Shown here piece after piece: positions 14,976 to 51,100 of a DNA stretch of 64,000 nucleotides; within the stretch, counting starts at the first letter, position 1, and each line of letters begins with the position of its first letter. Origin of the DNA: Ruania halotolerans (GTDB lineage: Bacteria > Actinomycetota > Actinomycetes > Actinomycetales > Beutenbergiaceae). The notes under the pieces are model-generated. The model was not told the origin of the DNA, ran no database searches, and saw only the letters and a list, made by a program, of their open reading frames with translations. The position numbers and the translations under genes are program-made. Location of the stretch: the NCBI RefSeq assembly GCF_021049285.1, contig NZ_CP088017.1, forward strand, positions 620,001-684,000, in the 5' to 3' direction.

Positions 14976-17186
14976 ATGCATCCCAACGAGGCCGGCGGCG
15001 CACCCGAGGTGGGTGGTGGTGTCCGGGGCGGGGCAGCTGCTCCGGACGTCGATGCTGTCTCGTTGAGCGAGCGGGTGCGTGCCGCGCGGGGTGCGGATCA
15101 GGTGTCGGCAGGGTGGTCGTTCGAGGCGTCGTGGTCGCAGGCGGCAGCGGTAGTGGCGGACGCCGGCGCGGATGCCGAGTTGCTCGAGCTTCTGGAGCAG
15201 GAGAGCGACGGCCCGACGACTCCGGATGAAGGGCTGCTGGTGGAGTTGGTCGCGGCCACGGATCGGATCCTCAACCATGCGTCAGCGCTGCAGGCCAGGT
15301 TCGTCGCGGACCTGATGGAGCGGCGGCGTGGCTCGGCGGGAGCGTCGCGCACCGCGGACGAGCTCGCTGCCCGGCTCGCCACGACGGGGTATTCGGCAGA
15401 GGTGCTGGTGGGGCGGGCGGAGGCTTTGGCGACTGCACCGGATGTGGCACACGCCCTGGATCGCGGTGTTCTGACACCCCGGAAGGCGGATCTGATCACT
15501 GACGCCACCGAAGGGCTGGAGCTGCCTCAGGCTCGTGCGGTGCAGGAGCACGCGGTGGCGTATGCGGAGCATCACACGGCGCCGCAGTTGCGGCGCGAGC
15601 TGGAGGCGGCGGTGCTGGCGGTGGACCCGGCCGGTGCGGAGCGCGAACACGAGAAGGCTTATGCGCGGCGACGGGTGATACGTGAGCCTGCTCGGCATGG
15701 GATGGAGTGGGTGAGCGCTCTCCTCAGTGCAGAGGCTGCTGCCAGTGCGTACACCGTGATCGATGGGTTGGCGGCGGATTGTGCGGCTGATGATGACCGG
15801 ACGATCGATCAGCGTCGGGCAGATGTACTCGCGCACGTGTTCAAGGAGATTCTGGCGACGGGGGCGACCGCGGGTGGTACGCGGTTACCCGATCGGCACG
15901 GTCGGCGCCCGATCGTGCGGGTGTCGGTGACTGAGGCAGTGCTCGCTGGGGATGACGAGAGCCCGGCGGTGTTGCATGGGTACGGCCCGATCTCGGCTGC
16001 GACTGCGCGGCGCCTGGCGGCAGCGTCGACGAGTGAGCTGGCCGGTGTCGGCGAGAGAGTTTCTGGCGCGCCAGGTGGTGGGGAGAGAGTTCCTGCCTCG
16101 CCGGGTGGTGGGGAGCGAGGTTCTGGCTCGCCAGGAAGCGGTGTATCTACCTCTGGGCTGCTGGGCAGGACTGTGCCCGGTGGTGCGTTGTCGACGGAGG
16201 AGCCGTTCGTCGTGGACGGACGCACTCGTGGCTACGGCAGCCACGCTCGACATACGGGCCACGGCGGACGTAGTGGCGGTTCGAGTGGCGAGGGGGCGCT
16301 GTTCGATCCGATGAATGAGGTGTTGCCAGCTCGCCGGCCTCCGGGTGTTCCCGATGGTACGGATGCGGAGGTGCTGATCGAGTGGGTGCATCGGCGCCAG
16401 GTGTGCCTGGGCCTGGGCCTGGGCACTGGACGCACTCGCGGCACTGGCGGCACTGATGGCACAGGTTCTGGCGGCGGCGGCGGCGGCGGCAGCGGCAGCG
16501 GTGGTGGTGGCAGTGGCAGCGGCAGCGGCGGCGGTGGTGGCAGTGGCAGCGGCAGCGGCGGCGGTGGTGGCAGTGGTGGTGGCGCAGGTGGCAGTGGTGG
16601 TGATCGCGGGGATCCATGCGCCGTGGTGGCTGATGAACTCGCCCTGGTGGCGTGTGACTCGTATGCGCCCTCGCGGCGGTTGCGGGATCTGATCACCGAG
16701 CGGGATCAGACCTGTCGGTTTCCTGGGTGCCTGGTGCCCGCGTGGCGCTGCCAGCTCGATCACATCGTCTCCTTCGACCCGGAATTGCCGGCGTGGGCGC
16801 AGACGGTGGAGACGAATCTGCACCTGCTGTGCCGCCGGCATCATCAGGTCAAGACCGAGCGCGTCTTCGAAGTGGAGCGGGACGCGCGGACCGGTGTCAC
16901 CACGTGGCGCACCCGTACCGGGCACGTCTATACCCGACTCCCCGAACGACTCGACCTGACCGCGTTCACCGCGCAGTTGCGCCGGAATGCTGCCACCGTG
17001 TGGACCGGGGAAATGGCCGACGATGTGCTGTGGCAGGACGAATTGCCCGAACCGGTGACGCCCCCGCGGCTGAGCCTGCTCAATGAACGCGACGTCCTCC
17101 TCGAACCCGAGGTCCTCCTCGAGCTCGACGTCCTCGACCGCGACATCCTCGAAGAGATTCGCAACCCGCCCGGGAAGGCTGCATAG
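14976..17186 (+). CDS. DUF222 / HNH endonuclease domain protein with repeat-rich linker
   Basis: A 736-residue protein of the actinobacterial DUF222-HNH family. The DUF222 helical region covers about residues 75-345 (LVELVAATDRILNHASALQA ... DQRRADVLAHVFKEIL). The HNH nuclease motif is near residues 578-625 (CRFPGCLVPAWRCQLDHIV, then NLHLLCRRHHQVKT), with the Cys pairs and the H-N-H residues present. Between them lies an expanded linker: a GERVSG/GERVPA repeat at about residues 358-390 and a Gly/Ser tract at about 489-545. The C-terminus is acidic and leucine-rich (LLEPEVLLELDVLD). Known: these proteins are common, often many per genome; nicking activity is shown for few and the role is unclear. 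Monocistronic; the start is ATG after a weak purine stretch. Confidence 0.85.
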   Translation: MHPNEAGGAPEVGGGVRGGAAAPDVDAVSLSERVRAARGADQVSAGWSFEASWSQAAAVVADAGADAELLELLEQESDGPTTPDEGLLVELVAATDRILNHASALQARFVADLMERRRGSAGASRTADELAARLATTGYSAEVLVGRAEALATAPDVAHALDRGVLTPRKADLITDATEGLELPQARAVQEHAVAYAEHHTAPQLRRELEAAVLAVDPAGAEREHEKAYARRRVIREPARHGMEWVSALLSAEAAASAYTVIDGLAADCAADDDRTIDQRRADVLAHVFKEILATGATAGGTRLPDRHGRRPIVRVSVTEAVLAGDDESPAVLHGYGPISAATARRLAAASTSELAGVGERVSGAPGGGERVPASPGGGERGSGSPGSGVSTSGLLGRTVPGGALSTEEPFVVDGRTRGYGSHARHTGHGGRSGGSSGEGALFDPMNEVLPARRPPGVPDGTDAEVLIEWVHRRQVCLGLGLGTGRTRGTGGTDGTGSGGGGGGGSGSGGGGSGSGSGGGGGSGSGSGGGGGSGGGAGGSGGDRGDPCAVVADELALVACDSYAPSRRLRDLITERDQTCRFPGCLVPAWRCQLDHIVSFDPELPAWAQTVETNLHLLCRRHHQVKTERVFEVERDARTGVTTWRTRTGHVYTRLPERLDLTAFTAQLRRNAATVWTGEMADDVLWQDELPEPVTPPRLSLLNERDVLLEPEVLLELDVLDRDILEEIRNPPGKAA
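16050..16136 (+). repeat. In-frame minisatellite encoding GER(V/G) repeats in the HNH gene
   Basis: Three imperfect units of about 30 bases encode GERVSGAPGG, GERVPASPGG and GERGSGSPGS. The frame is kept throughout. A related GERVSGV(A)Q motif can be read from the minisatellite downstream of the gene. Confidence 0.7.
16441..16610 (+). repeat. Gly/Ser trinucleotide-rich tract in the HNH gene
   Basis: GGC/GGT/AGC runs encode a flexible Gly-Ser linker (about residues 489-545) with an internal repeat of GSGSGGGGGSGSGSGGGG type. The length is likely to vary between strains by slippage. The opposite strand gives long Ala- or Pro-rich frames that are artefacts of this composition. Confidence 0.8.
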
Positions 17187-17294
17187 GCGGCGGGACCCTG
17201 ACGCCCACCGCGCGGGCGCTGATCGATCGGCCGGCGCCACTGGACGATCCCGGGTGATGCGGGAGGTAGGAGCAGGGTCCTTGACGAGAGATGG

Positions 17295-17461
17295 CTCAAA
17301 GGGAGTGGCAGGGGAGCGGGTCAGCGGAGTGGCTCAGGGGGGTGGCTCAGGGGAGCGGGTCAGCGGAGTGGCCCAGGGGGTGGCCCAGTGGAGTGGCTCA
17401 GGGGGGTGGCCCAGGGGGTGACTCAGGGGAGCGGGTCAGCGGAGTGGCCCAGCGGAGTAGC
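17295..17461. repeat. Minisatellite downstream of the HNH gene
   Basis: Repeated GGAGCGGGTCAGCGGAGTGG and GTGGCTCAGGGG modules with small variations fill this intergenic stretch up to the stop codon of the oxidase gene. The three forms GTGGCTCAGG, GTGGCCCAGG and GTGGCTCAGGGG alternate. One frame reads GERVSGVAQGGGSGERVSGV, echoing the repeat inside the HNH gene. No gene function is seen. Confidence 0.8.
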
Positions 17462-18115
17462 TCAGGGGAGGATGTCGATCCGACGCCACGCATCGTGCGT
17501 GGCGTCCTCCGCAGCCGCCCCGGTGTGGGTGGCAGCAGTGGGGCCGTCTGCCGTGAACCGTGTCTTCACCGGCGGGGTGTCGTCCGTGCCCGCCTGCCAG
17601 AAGTCCACCTGCCAGGGAGTGAGTTCGATGGTGGTCCACCCCGCCGGCCGGGGCAGGGGGTCCCGGGCTGCGGCGGCATCGAACCGCTCCCGGATAGCGT
17701 CGTTCGAGACTGCGAGATCCGGCGTTGGTGCTGACCCGGCCAGATCCTGATATGCCCAGGCAACGAGCTGCAGTTGCCGCGGCCGGGTGGGGTAGGCGGC
17801 CTCCGAGACCTCGGCGGGGAGCTCGCGTGCGGTGCCCGTCAGGATCACCTGGCGGCCGAGTGAGGGCCAGTGGAACACCGCAGCCACCCGCGGGTTCGCG
17901 GCGATGTCCTCGGACTTCGTCGTCGGGCTGGAGGTGTGGAACCGCAGCGCCATGCCGTCGATCTGGGTGACCAGCACTGTGCGGGCGTGCGGGGCGCCGT
18001 CGGCATCGGCGGTGGCCAAGGTCATCGTGCTGGGCAACGGCAGTCCGGCATCGTCTGCCTCGGCCACCCATCGGGCCAGGTTCGGCAGTGGCGGAGCGGC
18101 GAGAGTCTCAGGCAT
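17462..18115 (-). CDS. Pyridoxamine 5'-phosphate oxidase-like FMN protein
   Basis: A 217-residue protein of the PdxH-type flavin-binding split-barrel family. Seen: MTLATADADGAPHARTVLV (FMN-phosphate strand), LRFHTSSPTTKSEDIAANPRVAAVFHW, RQVILTGTARELP, and a C-terminal dimerisation segment ending in RRIDILP. Real PdxH ends in the substrate-binding RL.P motif, and the C-terminus here departs from it, with the TRF.......W..IDILP ending resembling PdxH-like paralogues. It could oxidise pyridoxine phosphate or another substrate. The start codon shares one base with the stop of the XRE-cupin regulator (TGATG), so the two form an operon and this enzyme probably belongs to that regulon. Confidence 0.75.
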   Translation of the reverse strand: MPETLAAPPLPNLARWVAEADDAGLPLPSTMTLATADADGAPHARTVLVTQIDGMALRFHTSSPTTKSEDIAANPRVAAVFHWPSLGRQVILTGTARELPAEVSEAAYPTRPRQLQLVAWAYQDLAGSAPTPDLAVSNDAIRERFDAAAARDPLPRPAGWTTIELTPWQVDFWQAGTDDTPPVKTRFTADGPTAATHTGAAAEDATHDAWRRIDILP

Positions 18116-47408: not shown

Positions 47409-48170
47409 TCAGGCAGGATTGCCGACGGCGTAGCCGACCACGTACCGAGCCGCACCGGGTGCGACGATCCTCTCGTGGTCCTCGTCGGCCCCGGAGGCAT
47501 CATCCGTGCCGGTCAGTCCGGCGAGGTGCAGCATCCGGGCATCTACGGCGCCACCCATGGGGTAGCCGACCAATCCGAGTGCTGCGGCTGCCAGCGAGAG
47601 GTTCTGTAGCGCCGCCCCAGCTTCCAACAGGGCGAACCGGCCGCCACGCTCTCCGTACTTGGCGAGCAGGGCCCGGGTGTCCGCGAAGAGGCCGACCACT
47701 GCCGCCGGAGGTGTGATCGCGTCAGCGCCACCGAGATCGTCGATCAGATCCGCCCAGGCCGGGCAGCCACCCACCGGGGTGAGCATGTGGACGACCGGAT
47801 CGTGCTGCAGCACGCGTCCAGGTCCACGGTCGGTAGGCCAGGTCAGGGTGATCCCACGGATGGTGTTCAGTCCGCCTGCTGCCGGATTCGGCCGGCCAGA
47901 GGTTCCTTCGGCCAGCACAGAGAGTAGGCGGCCGAGATCGCGGTCCTCGAGGGGCTCGGCGGAGAAGGCCCGTACGGACCGTCGCTGGTCGATCAGCTCG
48001 GCGAATGAGCCGTCCAGGCGCTCAGCTGACTGCGGCGGGCTCGGTCGTGACCACGGGTCCTGCGCTGGCTCGGCTGGCACGTAGGCGGCGATCCGGTCGA
48101 AGAATGCCTGCCGGTTTGCCGGGGTGATCGCCGATGCTGTCCAGAAATCCTCGAAATGTGGCGTGCTCAT
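47409..48170 (-). CDS. SagB-like FMN-dependent TOMM dehydrogenase (nitroreductase family)
   Basis: A 253-residue nitroreductase-family protein. Seen: FMN-phosphate motif IDQRRSVRAFSAEPL, central GGLNTIRGITL, and KYGERGGRFALLEAGAALQN followed by LSLAAAALGLVGYPMGG, the pattern of SagB-type dehydrogenases. Known: these oxidise azolines to aromatic thiazoles and oxazoles after YcaO action, using FMN. ATG at 48170 gives MSTPHFEDFW; a longer frame to 48356 would overlap the ycaO 3' end. It is the last gene of the TOMM operon, 115 bases after YcaO, in a gap with a 15-bp tandem duplication (CTGCCGCTCGGTGCG, twice, near 48220). Confidence 0.85.
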   Translation of the reverse strand: MSTPHFEDFWTASAITPANRQAFFDRIAAYVPAEPAQDPWSRPSPPQSAERLDGSFAELIDQRRSVRAFSAEPLEDRDLGRLLSVLAEGTSGRPNPAAGGLNTIRGITLTWPTDRGPGRVLQHDPVVHMLTPVGGCPAWADLIDDLGGADAITPPAAVVGLFADTRALLAKYGERGGRFALLEAGAALQNLSLAAAALGLVGYPMGGAVDARMLHLAGLTGTDDASGADEDHERIVAPGAARYVVGYAVGNPA

Positions 48171-48285
48171 GGCGTCACGGTACCTGCGGGGCGTGCCGGT
48201 CGCGGTCCGCTGCCGCTCGGTGCGCTGCCGCTCGGTGCGCGGACGGTAGGTGGTTCGCCAGAGTGGGTGCGTCCGGCGCAGGTGG

Positions 48286-49644
48286 TCAGCCGAGTGGGTG
48301 CGGCATCGGTGCCGGGAAGTCGCCCGGCGTTGCCCACGGGTAGCGCCGCGCCACATCGGCGCAGGTACCGCCCAGGTGCGGCCAGCGGTGATCGGGGTGG
48401 ATCGGTACCAGCTGCGGGCTGAGCACCCGCACCGCGCGGACGCCGCAGCCGGCGAGATCGGGCAGGGTCAACTCGCGATAGAGCAGGTCGATACCGGCAG
48501 CATCGAGCCCGGTGATGAGTTCGGCGAGCTGAGCGGCCACGGGCACAGTTCCTGTACCCGGCGTGGCGCGGGTCTCTGGTCCGCCCCACACCGCAAGCGT
48601 GTGCCACAGATCTGGCCGTCGGGTGTAGAACGTCGCGTGGTCGTCGAAGGTGTTCACGCTGTCGGGGTGCGGGCCCGCAGCGGCAGAGCTGAGCTGCCCG
48701 ATGCTTCGTGACAAGCGGCCATTCGGCTGCGCCCCCTGCGCTCCCTGCGCCGTCGGCATGCCGTTCACTCCGACGAATCCGATCCCCTGTGCCCATTCCA
48801 GTGCCGCCTTGGCGGCGGCCTCTGCGAAGGTGGATCGGCAAGCGAGTCCGATGCTGTGCCGATCTCGGCCGCCGCGTGGTGCCGTACCCAGCACTGCCGC
48901 CACCGGGTGGGGGCTGAATGCCGGGGTCAGGTCGAGCACCGTGAGGTCGAAGGTGCGGTCACTGTGCGGGGCTCGGGACCCGTGCTGGCCCAGGACGGTC
49001 AGTACCTCGGCCGGGATCGGCACCCGGCGAGCTGGCACGGCGTGCAGCCATGTGGTCACCAGCGCATCGCGTTCGATGAGCTCCTGCGTGGCGCGAAGTA
49101 GGGCGAGCAGGCTCGTCGGCGCGGCGGCGAGCCCGTTCGAGGTGGCCAGGTGCCCGAGCTCAGGATCGTTGCCTACCAGGTTCGCCGGCACCCAGACGGG
49201 TTCATTGTCCCGTAGGCGAAACACGCGGGTGACCCGGTCACTCGCGTAACTGGCGTGATGCGGGAAGCCGGGCTGGGCCCGCTGGTCGCGGGTGTGCAGG
49301 GAGAAGTCGTCGTGGCAGAGAACCCGCGCCGCCGGTGGCACGGAATGCAACGGGTGCACCGGCAGTGGGAACGAGGCGGCTGCGTACCGTTCCAGCAGCT
49401 CACCGATCGCCGCCGCACGTGCCTGCGCAGGGGTGGTGGCGGCTCCGCCTGCTGGAGTGCGCTCGTCCGCCGGACCGTACAGGGCCGAGTACTGCACGAT
49501 CGGTGGATCGGCCGGTGTGCTGGGAACCCGGCCCACCGACACCGCCGTTCCGCACCGCCAGCCGACGGCGCGGTCCAGCAGCGACCGAGCGGGTCCTGGC
49601 TCCTGATCGCGCAGGCCAGACGGATCCGGATGGAGCAGCATCAT
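48286..49644 (-). CDS. YcaO cyclodehydratase (TOMM biosynthesis)
   Basis: A 452-residue YcaO protein, the ATP-using enzyme that makes thiazoline or oxazoline rings from Cys, Ser or Thr by phosphorylating the backbone amide. ATP-site motifs visible: AAAIGELLERYAA near residue 75 and SNGLAAAPTSLLALLRATQE followed by LIERDAL. The C-terminus ends FPAPMPHPLG, a Pro-x-Pro-x-Pro-type tail like that required in azoline-forming YcaOs. The start ATG at 49644 overlaps the E1-like stop as ATGA; upstream extensions lie inside that gene. Together with the E1-like partner it forms a discrete (two-protein) cyclodehydratase. Confidence 0.9.
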   Translation of the reverse strand: MMLLHPDPSGLRDQEPGPARSLLDRAVGWRCGTAVSVGRVPSTPADPPIVQYSALYGPADERTPAGGAATTPAQARAAAIGELLERYAAASFPLPVHPLHSVPPAARVLCHDDFSLHTRDQRAQPGFPHHASYASDRVTRVFRLRDNEPVWVPANLVGNDPELGHLATSNGLAAAPTSLLALLRATQELIERDALVTTWLHAVPARRVPIPAEVLTVLGQHGSRAPHSDRTFDLTVLDLTPAFSPHPVAAVLGTAPRGGRDRHSIGLACRSTFAEAAAKAALEWAQGIGFVGVNGMPTAQGAQGAQPNGRLSRSIGQLSSAAAGPHPDSVNTFDDHATFYTRRPDLWHTLAVWGGPETRATPGTGTVPVAAQLAELITGLDAAGIDLLYRELTLPDLAGCGVRAVRVLSPQLVPIHPDHRWPHLGGTCADVARRYPWATPGDFPAPMPHPLG

Positions 49645-50495
49645 CGAGCCCAGGGCAGGCTCAATCGCCCATCGGTGACGATTCCGCCGCACAGGGAGCA
49701 CTGGGCGCTGCGCAGACACGGGCTGCGGCCGGATTCCAAGGAGTCCAGATCGATGGAGACGCACGCGTCCACGAGAGGGAAGCGCCCCTCGACCGCCAGC
49801 CGGAGCTGGTGCGCGAGCAGTCCGGCAGCGGCCTGTGCGCCCGCCCCGGAGGCGGCACCAGGAGTGGAGGGCGGAGCCGGGTCACCCCATCGACTCTGCA
49901 CCCGTCCAGCCAGGCACCCCACGCACGCGCTGTGCCCCGGTGCCACGAACGGGCCCAGGGCGAGAGTGTGCGCCGAGGAGAGATCGCACAGCAGATGCAG
50001 ATCACCGGCACGTACCAGCTCCCCCGTCAGCTGCGCCGTCGCCGCGAGCGTGGCGGTGGTGCGCACCACGATGGTGACGACGTCCACAGAGCTGGGCCGG
50101 CCGCCGTCAGGCTGGTCGACGTGATCGAACAGGCGCCAGCCGTGCATGCGGCAGAGGGCGGCGAACGCAGCCCGGAAATCGGGCGAGTCAGTGCCGGCGA
50201 ACCTCAGGGCGAGCGCCAGCGGCGAGAGCATAACCGGAGTGCCGAACACGCCGATCGCCCGGAGTTGTTCCACTGCGAGCAGAGCAGCAGGGGAGAGATC
50301 TGCCGGGGTGGGCGGTTCCGGTGACCAGCAACCCGCGAGTTCCGCGGCGATGGTGCCGGGGACGTCGTCGACCACCCAGATTTCATCCGGCCCGGCGGTC
50401 GCCACGAGATAGCCGCCCTCGTCACTGACCCGCCACCCAGGTGCACCGACGATCGTGCGGGCCCTCGTCGGTGCTGGGGTGATCGGCGTCTTCAC
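49641..50495 (-). CDS. TOMM E1-like leader-peptide-binding protein (cyclodehydratase partner)
   Basis: A 284-residue protein of the E1-ubiquitin-activating-like class that binds the precursor leader and presents it to YcaO. The N-terminal winged-helix/RRE-like part reads VKTPITPAPTRARTIVG then GWRVSDEGGYLVATAG. The C-terminal part has two Cys pairs, GHSACVGCLAGRVQSRW and CLRSAQCSLCGG, a zinc site expected in these proteins. The AG(D)LHLLCDLSSAHTLALGPFV segment precedes the zinc site. The start is a GTG at 50495 that overlaps the membrane-protein stop as GTGA. The region upstream of it belongs to that gene. Assignment rests on motif and on YcaO and SagB next door. Confidence 0.8.
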   Translation of the reverse strand: MKTPITPAPTRARTIVGAPGWRVSDEGGYLVATAGPDEIWVVDDVPGTIAAELAGCWSPEPPTPADLSPAALLAVEQLRAIGVFGTPVMLSPLALALRFAGTDSPDFRAAFAALCRMHGWRLFDHVDQPDGGRPSSVDVVTIVVRTTATLAATAQLTGELVRAGDLHLLCDLSSAHTLALGPFVAPGHSACVGCLAGRVQSRWGDPAPPSTPGAASGAGAQAAAGLLAHQLRLAVEGRFPLVDACVSIDLDSLESGRSPCLRSAQCSLCGGIVTDGRLSLPWAR

Positions 50496-51100
50496 AGGCC
50501 CGTGCGGCGGCGTTTGCGTCGTGCGGCGCCCACACCGAGGAGGCCAGCGATCGTGAGGAGCGGGATGGCGACGATGCCGGCGATCGCGATGGCGAGGTAG
50601 ATCCCCTCGAAGGCGAGCAGCCACAGCGTGATCTCACCGACGAATACGGCTGCGGCCAGCGCCAGGACGAGGAGCGGGACGGCGATCGATGGTGACGGGG
50701 CTAGTCCCGCACGGCGGTAGCCGAAGACCGCCAGGCCGAGGGTGAGGAGCAATCCGGCGAGCGCTGTGACGATGAAGAACTCGCCGGTGACCGCACCGGA
50801 GAGGGCCACCAACAGCCCGATCGGGAGCGCGAGCGCCGCGAGGACGATTCCGCCGGTGCGGCCGGGCCTGGGCTCTGCTGGCATACCGGGTGTGTGCGCC
50901 GGTGGAGCGCCGGTGCCGGGCGGCTCCGGCGCGGTGGGCGGGCGCGGCGTCATCTGCGCGAGGAGTAGAGGCAGCGCCACCGAGGCTGCCACCACCGTGC
51001 CCGCACAGCAGCAGCAACAACAGCAACCACAGCACGAGGGCGTCGTCGGGCCGCCAGATGTCGCCGGGGAGAACTGGTTCGGCGCACGCAGCAGGGCCAT
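50492..51100 (-). CDS. Candidate TOMM precursor fused to a polytopic membrane domain
   Basis: A 202-residue protein. Residues 1-22 (MALLRAPNQFSPATSGGPTT plus PS) are a polar leader with Phe at 10. Residues 23-32 are CCGCCCCCCC, nine cysteines with one glycine. A hydrophobic segment follows at once (33-50), then a Pro-rich linker (51-83), and three to four membrane segments (about 84-105, 108-127, 138-160, 165-192), ending in a basic tail (RRKRRRTG). The Cys codons mix TGC (five) and TGT (four), so this is not a simple slippage tract. Its stop overlaps the start of the E1-like gene (GTGA). The layout resembles streptolysin S-type precursors (leader then poly-Cys core) but with a membrane protein attached. 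No protease or exporter gene is present. Alternative: a membrane immunity protein with a metal-binding Cys run. Confidence 0.8.
   Translation of the reverse strand: MALLRAPNQFSPATSGGPTTPSCCGCCCCCCCAGTVVAASVALPLLLAQMTPRPPTAPEPPGTGAPPAHTPGMPAEPRPGRTGGIVLAALALPIGLLVALSGAVTGEFFIVTALAGLLLTLGLAVFGYRRAGLAPSPSIAVPLLVLALAAAVFVGEITLWLLAFEGIYLAIAIAGIVAIPLLTIAGLLGVGAARRKRRRTGL

Follow-up and report, generated by a model that had tools for sequence, protein, structure and literature searches.

A compact minus-strand operon of Ruania halotolerans probably encodes a thiazole/oxazole-modified microcin (TOMM), or linear azol(in)e, modification system that acts on the tail of an integral membrane protein and leaves its product in the membrane of the producer. 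The operon occupies positions 47409-51100 of the window, by which we mean the whole 64,000-nucleotide stretch analysed (contig NZ_CP088017.1, positions 620,001 to 684,000). Open reading frames (ORFs) and domain models identified four genes there, for a poly-Cys membrane protein, an E1-like protein, a YcaO protein and a SagB-like flavoenzyme, which confirmed the coordinates and frames of the four consecutive minus-strand genes claimed in a preliminary description of this DNA. Protein lengths below are in amino acids (aa).

50492..51100, minus strand: putative precursor, 202 aa, ATG start, polytopic, with its parts assigned from sequence, alignment and hydropathy
51005..51034, minus strand: Cys-run DNA, coding CCGCCCCCCC (9 Cys), near the precursor N-terminus
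49641..50495, minus strand: E1-like leader-binding protein (C protein), 284 aa, GTG start, TIGR03882
48286..49644, minus strand: YcaO cyclodehydratase (D protein), 452 aa, ATG start, C-terminus FPAPMPHPLG, PF02624
48171..48285, minus strand: gap between the YcaO and SagB-like genes, 115 bases
47409..48170, minus strand: SagB-like FMN dehydrogenase (B protein) of the nitroreductase family, 253 aa, ATG start, PF00881

The first three genes are linked, as the preliminary description had reported, by two 4-base overlaps, GTGA at 50492-50495 (precursor/E1-like) and ATGA at 49641-49644 (E1-like/YcaO). For the SagB-like gene, a longer ORF from an upstream ATG is likewise open. The nine Cys of CCGCCCCCCC are encoded by five TGC and four TGT codons, indicating that this DNA is not a pure trinucleotide repeat, and the pattern of seven Cys codons has a single occurrence in the window and none in 100 shuffles. 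Within the gap before the SagB-like gene, a 15-base unit is repeated 2.5 times at 48203-48240.

YcaO searches of whole genomes, with the single sequence or an alignment, gave matches that passed the thresholds applied in 3 of 24 genomes of the family (the window genome G000, G015 and the distant G020), in 3 of 396 genomes of the order (G000, G015 and G150) and in 3 of 396 genomes of the phylum (G000, G981 and G1000). A class sample searched with a single YcaO query at E 1e-25 returned its own genome only (1/394), and among GTDB contigs the window YcaO matched one locus, in Lentzea atacamensis. Family searches around G1000 and G981 recovered known members only (1/2 and 1/6 genomes, respectively), and the genus of G150 held no member but G150 itself. 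The comparison comprises six loci, those of the window, G015, G150, Lentzea, G981 and G1000, with seven precursors, the start codons of the relatives having been chosen by hand. The YcaO of G020, which belongs to the same genus as the window (33% identity, E 2e-13), was left out as another YcaO kind; it forms the C-terminal part of a 766-aa ORF with a long preceding part. None of three other YcaO loci of about 4 kb each, namely that of G020 (L005, 1-4149) and those of the second YcaOs of Lentzea and G981, contains a Cys run of four. A plasmid-borne family was also considered and rejected, with no tblastn match to two YcaOs in 72,556 records at E 1e-20.

All six loci contain the genes for the poly-Cys membrane protein(s), the E1-like protein, the YcaO and the SagB-like enzyme in a tight array, with the C and D proteins encoded by separate ORFs throughout. 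The order is precursor-E1-YcaO-SagB in three loci and E1-precursor-YcaO-SagB in the other three, and distances between consecutive genes range from -26 to +115 bases, counting in a 60-aa Lentzea ORF. That ORF (L002 4289-4471), which has a long hydrophobic stretch, lies between the E1-like and precursor genes and overlaps both. G1000 carries two tandem precursor genes (L015 5549-6735), with nearly identical leader and core and strongly diverged membrane parts. The preliminary description had left open whether homologues of the membrane protein occur mostly without YcaO and whether they keep the Cys run; all seven found adjoin the same three enzymes, and each has seven to nine core Cys (9, 9, 7, 8, 9, 7 and 9). 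Moreover, a leader-plus-core profile of 50 positions, applied to 396 genomes of the phylum and 376 of the order, gave matches at E<1e-18 in 3 of the former (G000, G981 and G1000) and 3 of the latter (G000, G015 and G150), which are exactly the YcaO-positive genomes, and it recovered the single copy in Lentzea.

The window precursor begins with a leader (residues 1-21) containing PNQF and TTP, followed by the core SCCGCCCCCCC (residues 22-32), a hydrophobic stretch (33-50), a Pro-rich linker (51-83), four predicted transmembrane (TM) segments and a basic C-terminus. In the alignment of the seven precursors, P7, Q9, F10, T20, P21 and C28-C31 are invariant. The longest Cys/Ser/Thr runs measure 7, 7, 9, 9, 10, 8 and 11 residues, with one Gly as a break in the window and G015. 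Mean identity over the 21 pairs is 52% (501/966) for the N-terminal 47 residues versus 24% (574/2355) for the anchor; in the tandem pair of G1000, the corresponding values are 89% and 40%. Between the window and G015, the core shows 0 nonsynonymous and 4 synonymous differences, and pN/pS is 0.15 in the leader, 0.00 in the core, 0.09 in the next stretch, 0.67 in the linker and 0.56 in the TM part. Leader and core thus stay constant while the membrane part drifts, as one would expect of a substrate for enzymes that carries a variable appendage.

Family models said little about the precursors. The window protein had no NCBIfam match at E 1, and its best Pfam match, Herpes_LMP1 (E 0.02), fell below the cut-off and was taken as chance. 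Over the seven precursors, Pfam gave a single CopD match (E 0.0046), and NCBIfam gave weak matches of streptolysinS TIGR03602 to two (best E 0.027) and three other weak matches to one member each. A phage family and a known defence system were both discarded, PHROGs matching one of the seven precursors only, with an unnamed family (E 0.0043), and PADLOC matching none of the four window proteins.

Topology was assigned by a simple hand-made hydropathy scan rather than a trained predictor. The scan shows a first hydrophobic stretch, formed by the Cys run and its neighbours, and then four segments in five of the seven precursors; a hydrophobic multi-segment domain is retained in all seven. By the positive-inside rule, basic residues mark the cytosolic side of membrane proteins. 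In these five precursors, 49 Lys and Arg residues lie in the linker, loop 2-3 and the C-terminus versus 3 in loops 1-2 and 3-4, a charge distribution that predicts the linker and C-terminus to be cytosolic. The leader and core would then be cytosolic too, unless the first hydrophobic stretch also spans the membrane, and such a placement fits modification by soluble enzymes. Gene set, linkage, conservation and predicted topology are computational results.

The three enzymes of the window were assigned with domain models. The E1-like protein matches TIGR03882, "TOMM precursor leader peptide-binding protein", with 43.0 bits (cut-off 36.9), the YcaO matches PF02624 with 129.5 bits (cut-off 25.7, E 2e-37), and the flavoenzyme matches PF00881 Nitroreductase with 49.6 bits (cut-off 23.5, E 7e-13). 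In all six loci, the E1-like protein, the YcaO and the flavoenzyme match TIGR03882, TIGR03604 and TIGR03605, respectively, at E 0.01 or better. Relatives in the PDB are TruD and LynD for the E1-like profile and, besides the best match, LynD, TruD, MusD, YcaO and McbD for the YcaO profile. The dehydrogenase profile likewise has, after its best match, BmdC (a thiazole oxidase), CyaGox, McbC and others. TruD, LynD, McbD and McbC are TOMM enzymes. Cys191, 194, 266 and 269 of the E1-like protein are invariant in the six loci, as we would expect of a zinc site. The YcaO ends in PHPLG in all six, a Pro-rich end that resembles the PxPxP end of TOMM YcaOs. Lys171-Tyr172 of the flavoenzyme is likewise invariant (6/6); a Lys-Tyr motif, to which this pair may correspond, is named as important in TOMM dehydrogenases (PMC11055893). 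The window YcaO is the only YcaO match in its own genome at E 0.001.

A separate small Cys-rich precursor, whose presence in related clusters would by the preliminary description speak against the membrane protein as substrate, was not found in the six loci. The scan covered ORFs of 20-120 aa with a Cys run of at least 3, at least 12% Cys, or a Cys/Ser/Thr run of at least 8, and it returned five ORFs in four loci, all with Cys runs of at most 2 and none beginning with the leader; the upstream side of G981 was little covered, as its contig starts about 330 bases before the E1-like gene.

The flanking genes differ from locus to locus. In the window they encode a LuxR-type AAA regulator, a Cys/Met PLP enzyme and a rhodanese. 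G015 also has a rhodanese gene, together with a sequence whose translation looks like the end of a LuxR protein. A penicillin-binding protein and PNPase are encoded in G150, a MerR protein and a phospholipase A2 in Lentzea, and methylmalonyl-CoA mutase, MarR and AAA proteins in G1000. An ABC-2 transporter pair and a zinc peptidase are encoded on the opposite strand beside the G981 operon, the sole such case in the six loci. Among 20 chosen flanking ORFs of the six loci, of which 3 had no Pfam match at all, no gene beyond the four was common to the loci, the close window-G015 pair excepted, no shared exporter or protease was detected, and no combination of a CaaX-like protease with an ABC transporter was found. 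The phospholipase A2 gene of Lentzea is of the prokaryotic type (PF09056) and follows the operon at L002 6780-7352. The precursor and rhodanese genes of G015 are separated by an open stretch of 309 aa that has no Pfam match (L007 6736-7662), where the window has about 200 bases. Elsewhere in the window, several tandem repeat arrays with periods of 3 to 64 lie inside one kilobase (16470-17470).

Together, these data support the view that the poly-Cys membrane protein is the substrate of the three enzymes, as the preliminary description had thought probable: the two are linked in 7/7 cases, leader and core are conserved, the tail is predicted to be cytosolic in 5/7 precursors, and no other precursor ORF was found in the six loci. 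Each of the six loci combines YcaO and E1-like proteins, an FMN dehydrogenase and a nearby leader/Cys-core precursor (seven precursors in all), the gene content by which a TOMM is recognized. That the precursor is modified in one form or other, retained or released, appears very likely. We infer leader binding, ring formation with its extent, and membrane retention as follows. The E1-like protein would bind a short N-terminal recognition segment, P-x-Q-F (7/7), on the cytosolic leader, the YcaO would use ATP to close the seven to nine Cys into thiazolines, and the SagB-like flavoenzyme would oxidise these to thiazoles, giving a largely contiguous oligothiazole directly before the hydrophobic stretch. 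The linker and the membrane domain, probably of four helices, would hold the modified tail at the membrane. Since the flanking ORFs scanned share neither an exporter nor a leader protease, retention in the membrane of the producer is the most likely fate of the modified protein.

Several observations weigh against this reading. The profiles behind the co-occurrence result were built from the same loci, and their first pass scored a portion of the candidates, at most 17-18 per genome. Weak leader/core matches (E 5e-4 to 6e-3) came from 11 further phylum genomes; the segment P-x-Q-F followed by CC within 30 residues, present in all five relatives' loci, occurs in none of these 11 loci (2-3 kb each), nor do the window's four proteins match there at E 1e-3. 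At one of these loci, L021, PDNF and CCGCC share a reading frame, which we judged a chance likeness. The HMM search for SagB, YcaO and E1-like families that the preliminary description proposed gave matches above cut-off for TIGR03882, PF02624 and PF00881, but not for the Sag-specific models: SagD TIGR03604 on the window YcaO (122.8 versus 219.25) and SagB TIGR03605 on the flavoenzyme (41.2 versus 78.4) were significant and stayed under their cut-offs. The McrA-thioamidation model TIGR03266 also matches all six YcaOs, far more weakly than TIGR03604 (best 3e-10 versus 6e-42). MJ1094, which is not a TOMM enzyme, ranks first among the PDB matches of the YcaO profile, and a putative nitroreductase does so for the dehydrogenase profile. 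As for the membrane, the precursors of Lentzea and G981 show three segments above the threshold and a fourth under it, the hydrophobic stretch that adjoins the core might be membrane-spanning as well, and retention rests on an absence among the 20 chosen flanking ORFs together with four clear TM segments in just 5/7 precursors.

In the main rival reading, the anchor is a temporary carrier, from which, and from the leader, the polythiazole core and hydrophobic stretch are cut to set free a peptide similar to streptolysin S or to a bacteriocin, with the anchor aiding secretion or self-protection. The fast change of the anchor (24% identity, pN/pS 0.56) next to conserved residues 1-47 speaks for release and parallels the streptolysin S family, whose members conserve a contiguous ring region but vary in a largely dispensable C-terminal part (PMC4513790); the weak TIGR03602 matches to 2/7 precursors point the same way. 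However, the hydrophobic multi-segment domain is kept in all seven precursors, and the 20 flanking ORFs share no protease or transporter, the ABC-2 pair and zinc peptidase being near only one of the six loci and on the opposite strand. We consider such release rather unlikely and keep the membrane-held product, the simpler outcome, as the preferred reading.

Ring formation on the Cys run is denied by two other explanations. In theory, poly-Cys adjoining a membrane segment might coordinate metal or carry acyl groups, and the run might then stay uncyclised as a metal, redox or lipid-attachment site while the three enzymes act elsewhere. This is improbable, as all seven homologues found sit with ring-forming enzymes, the window genome has one YcaO match, and the six loci hold no other candidate substrate ORF. 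The TGY-rich DNA could also be taken for a slipped-strand repeat translated out of frame, an idea to which we give practically no credence: it is already contradicted by the mixed TGC/TGT codons, by core differences from G015 that are synonymous only, and by a leader and core that are in frame in all seven homologues.

Azole-forming systems act, in the literature covered, on small precursor peptides. With a precursor that joins a leader and a Cys core to a polytopic anchor, their chemistry would reach membrane proteins, a set of clusters would gain a substrate overlooked by searches aimed at short peptides, and a genetically encoded oligothiazole would be fixed in a membrane. More tentatively, these proteins may form a class that permanently bears a directly linked run of up to seven to nine thiazoles, a rigid conjugated rod on the cytosolic tail that rests on or inserts into the producer's membrane and is perhaps membrane-active, light-absorbing, metal-binding or electron-conducting rather than a secreted antibiotic. 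Such a rod would be long enough to span about half to all of the bilayer.

Among known systems, the streptolysin-S-like cytolysins (SagA with SagBCD), clusters of which are reported from Mobiluncus and Propionibacterium (PMC4513790), are similar in their discrete B, C and D enzymes and in an N-terminal leader ahead of the core; their core starts with 9-10 contiguous ring-forming residues (PMC4513790, PMC4603692), next to longest Cys/Ser/Thr runs of 7 to 11 here. A conserved core with a variable C-terminal part is a further likeness (PMC4513790). Different from these cytolysins, the C-terminal part here is a membrane domain, the core consists of Cys interrupted by no more than one Gly or Ser and is preceded by TP(T/S) rather than Gly, the flanking ORFs scanned share no CaaX protease or ABC transporter, and the TIGR03602 matches stay weak. 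By the tests made, the system is not a member of the streptolysin family, and by gene content it is a TOMM.

Mobilisins, reported from Actinobacteria with B, C and D only and no automatically found precursor (PMC4603692), share the minimal gene set and, judging by G+C and the Lentzea relative, probably the phylum. However, their cyclodehydratase is fused, and their peptide is short and contains few Cys, Ser and Thr residues (PMC4603692), whereas the window and its five relatives encode C and D as separate ORFs beside a Cys-rich membrane protein. Propionisins and gallolytisins resemble our loci in their discrete cyclodehydratase and contiguous Cys/Ser/Thr cores, and propionisins also in often having several precursors; they differ in their ABC transporters, to which propionisins add CaaX-like proteases, and the passages covered mention no membrane-protein precursor (PMC4603692). 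The words "membrane" and "transmembrane" occur 0 times in the main text of that survey of TOMM groups (Cox 2015). Titles and abstract beginnings, among the matches listed and with subscription literature mostly outside the coverage, contained no description of a membrane-protein azole precursor, and the suggestion in the preliminary description of an undescribed class holds only within the literature covered.

YcaO enzymes are described as thioamidating full-size proteins, namely McrA (PMC5589413) and a ribosomal protein (PMC13063428), and a YcaO with a large protein substrate is therefore not new in itself. While those enzymes add a thioamide, the E1-like and SagB-like partners and the Cys run found here point to azoles on a membrane protein, and it is because of this membrane-protein precursor that we regard the predicted TOMM system as a new variation.

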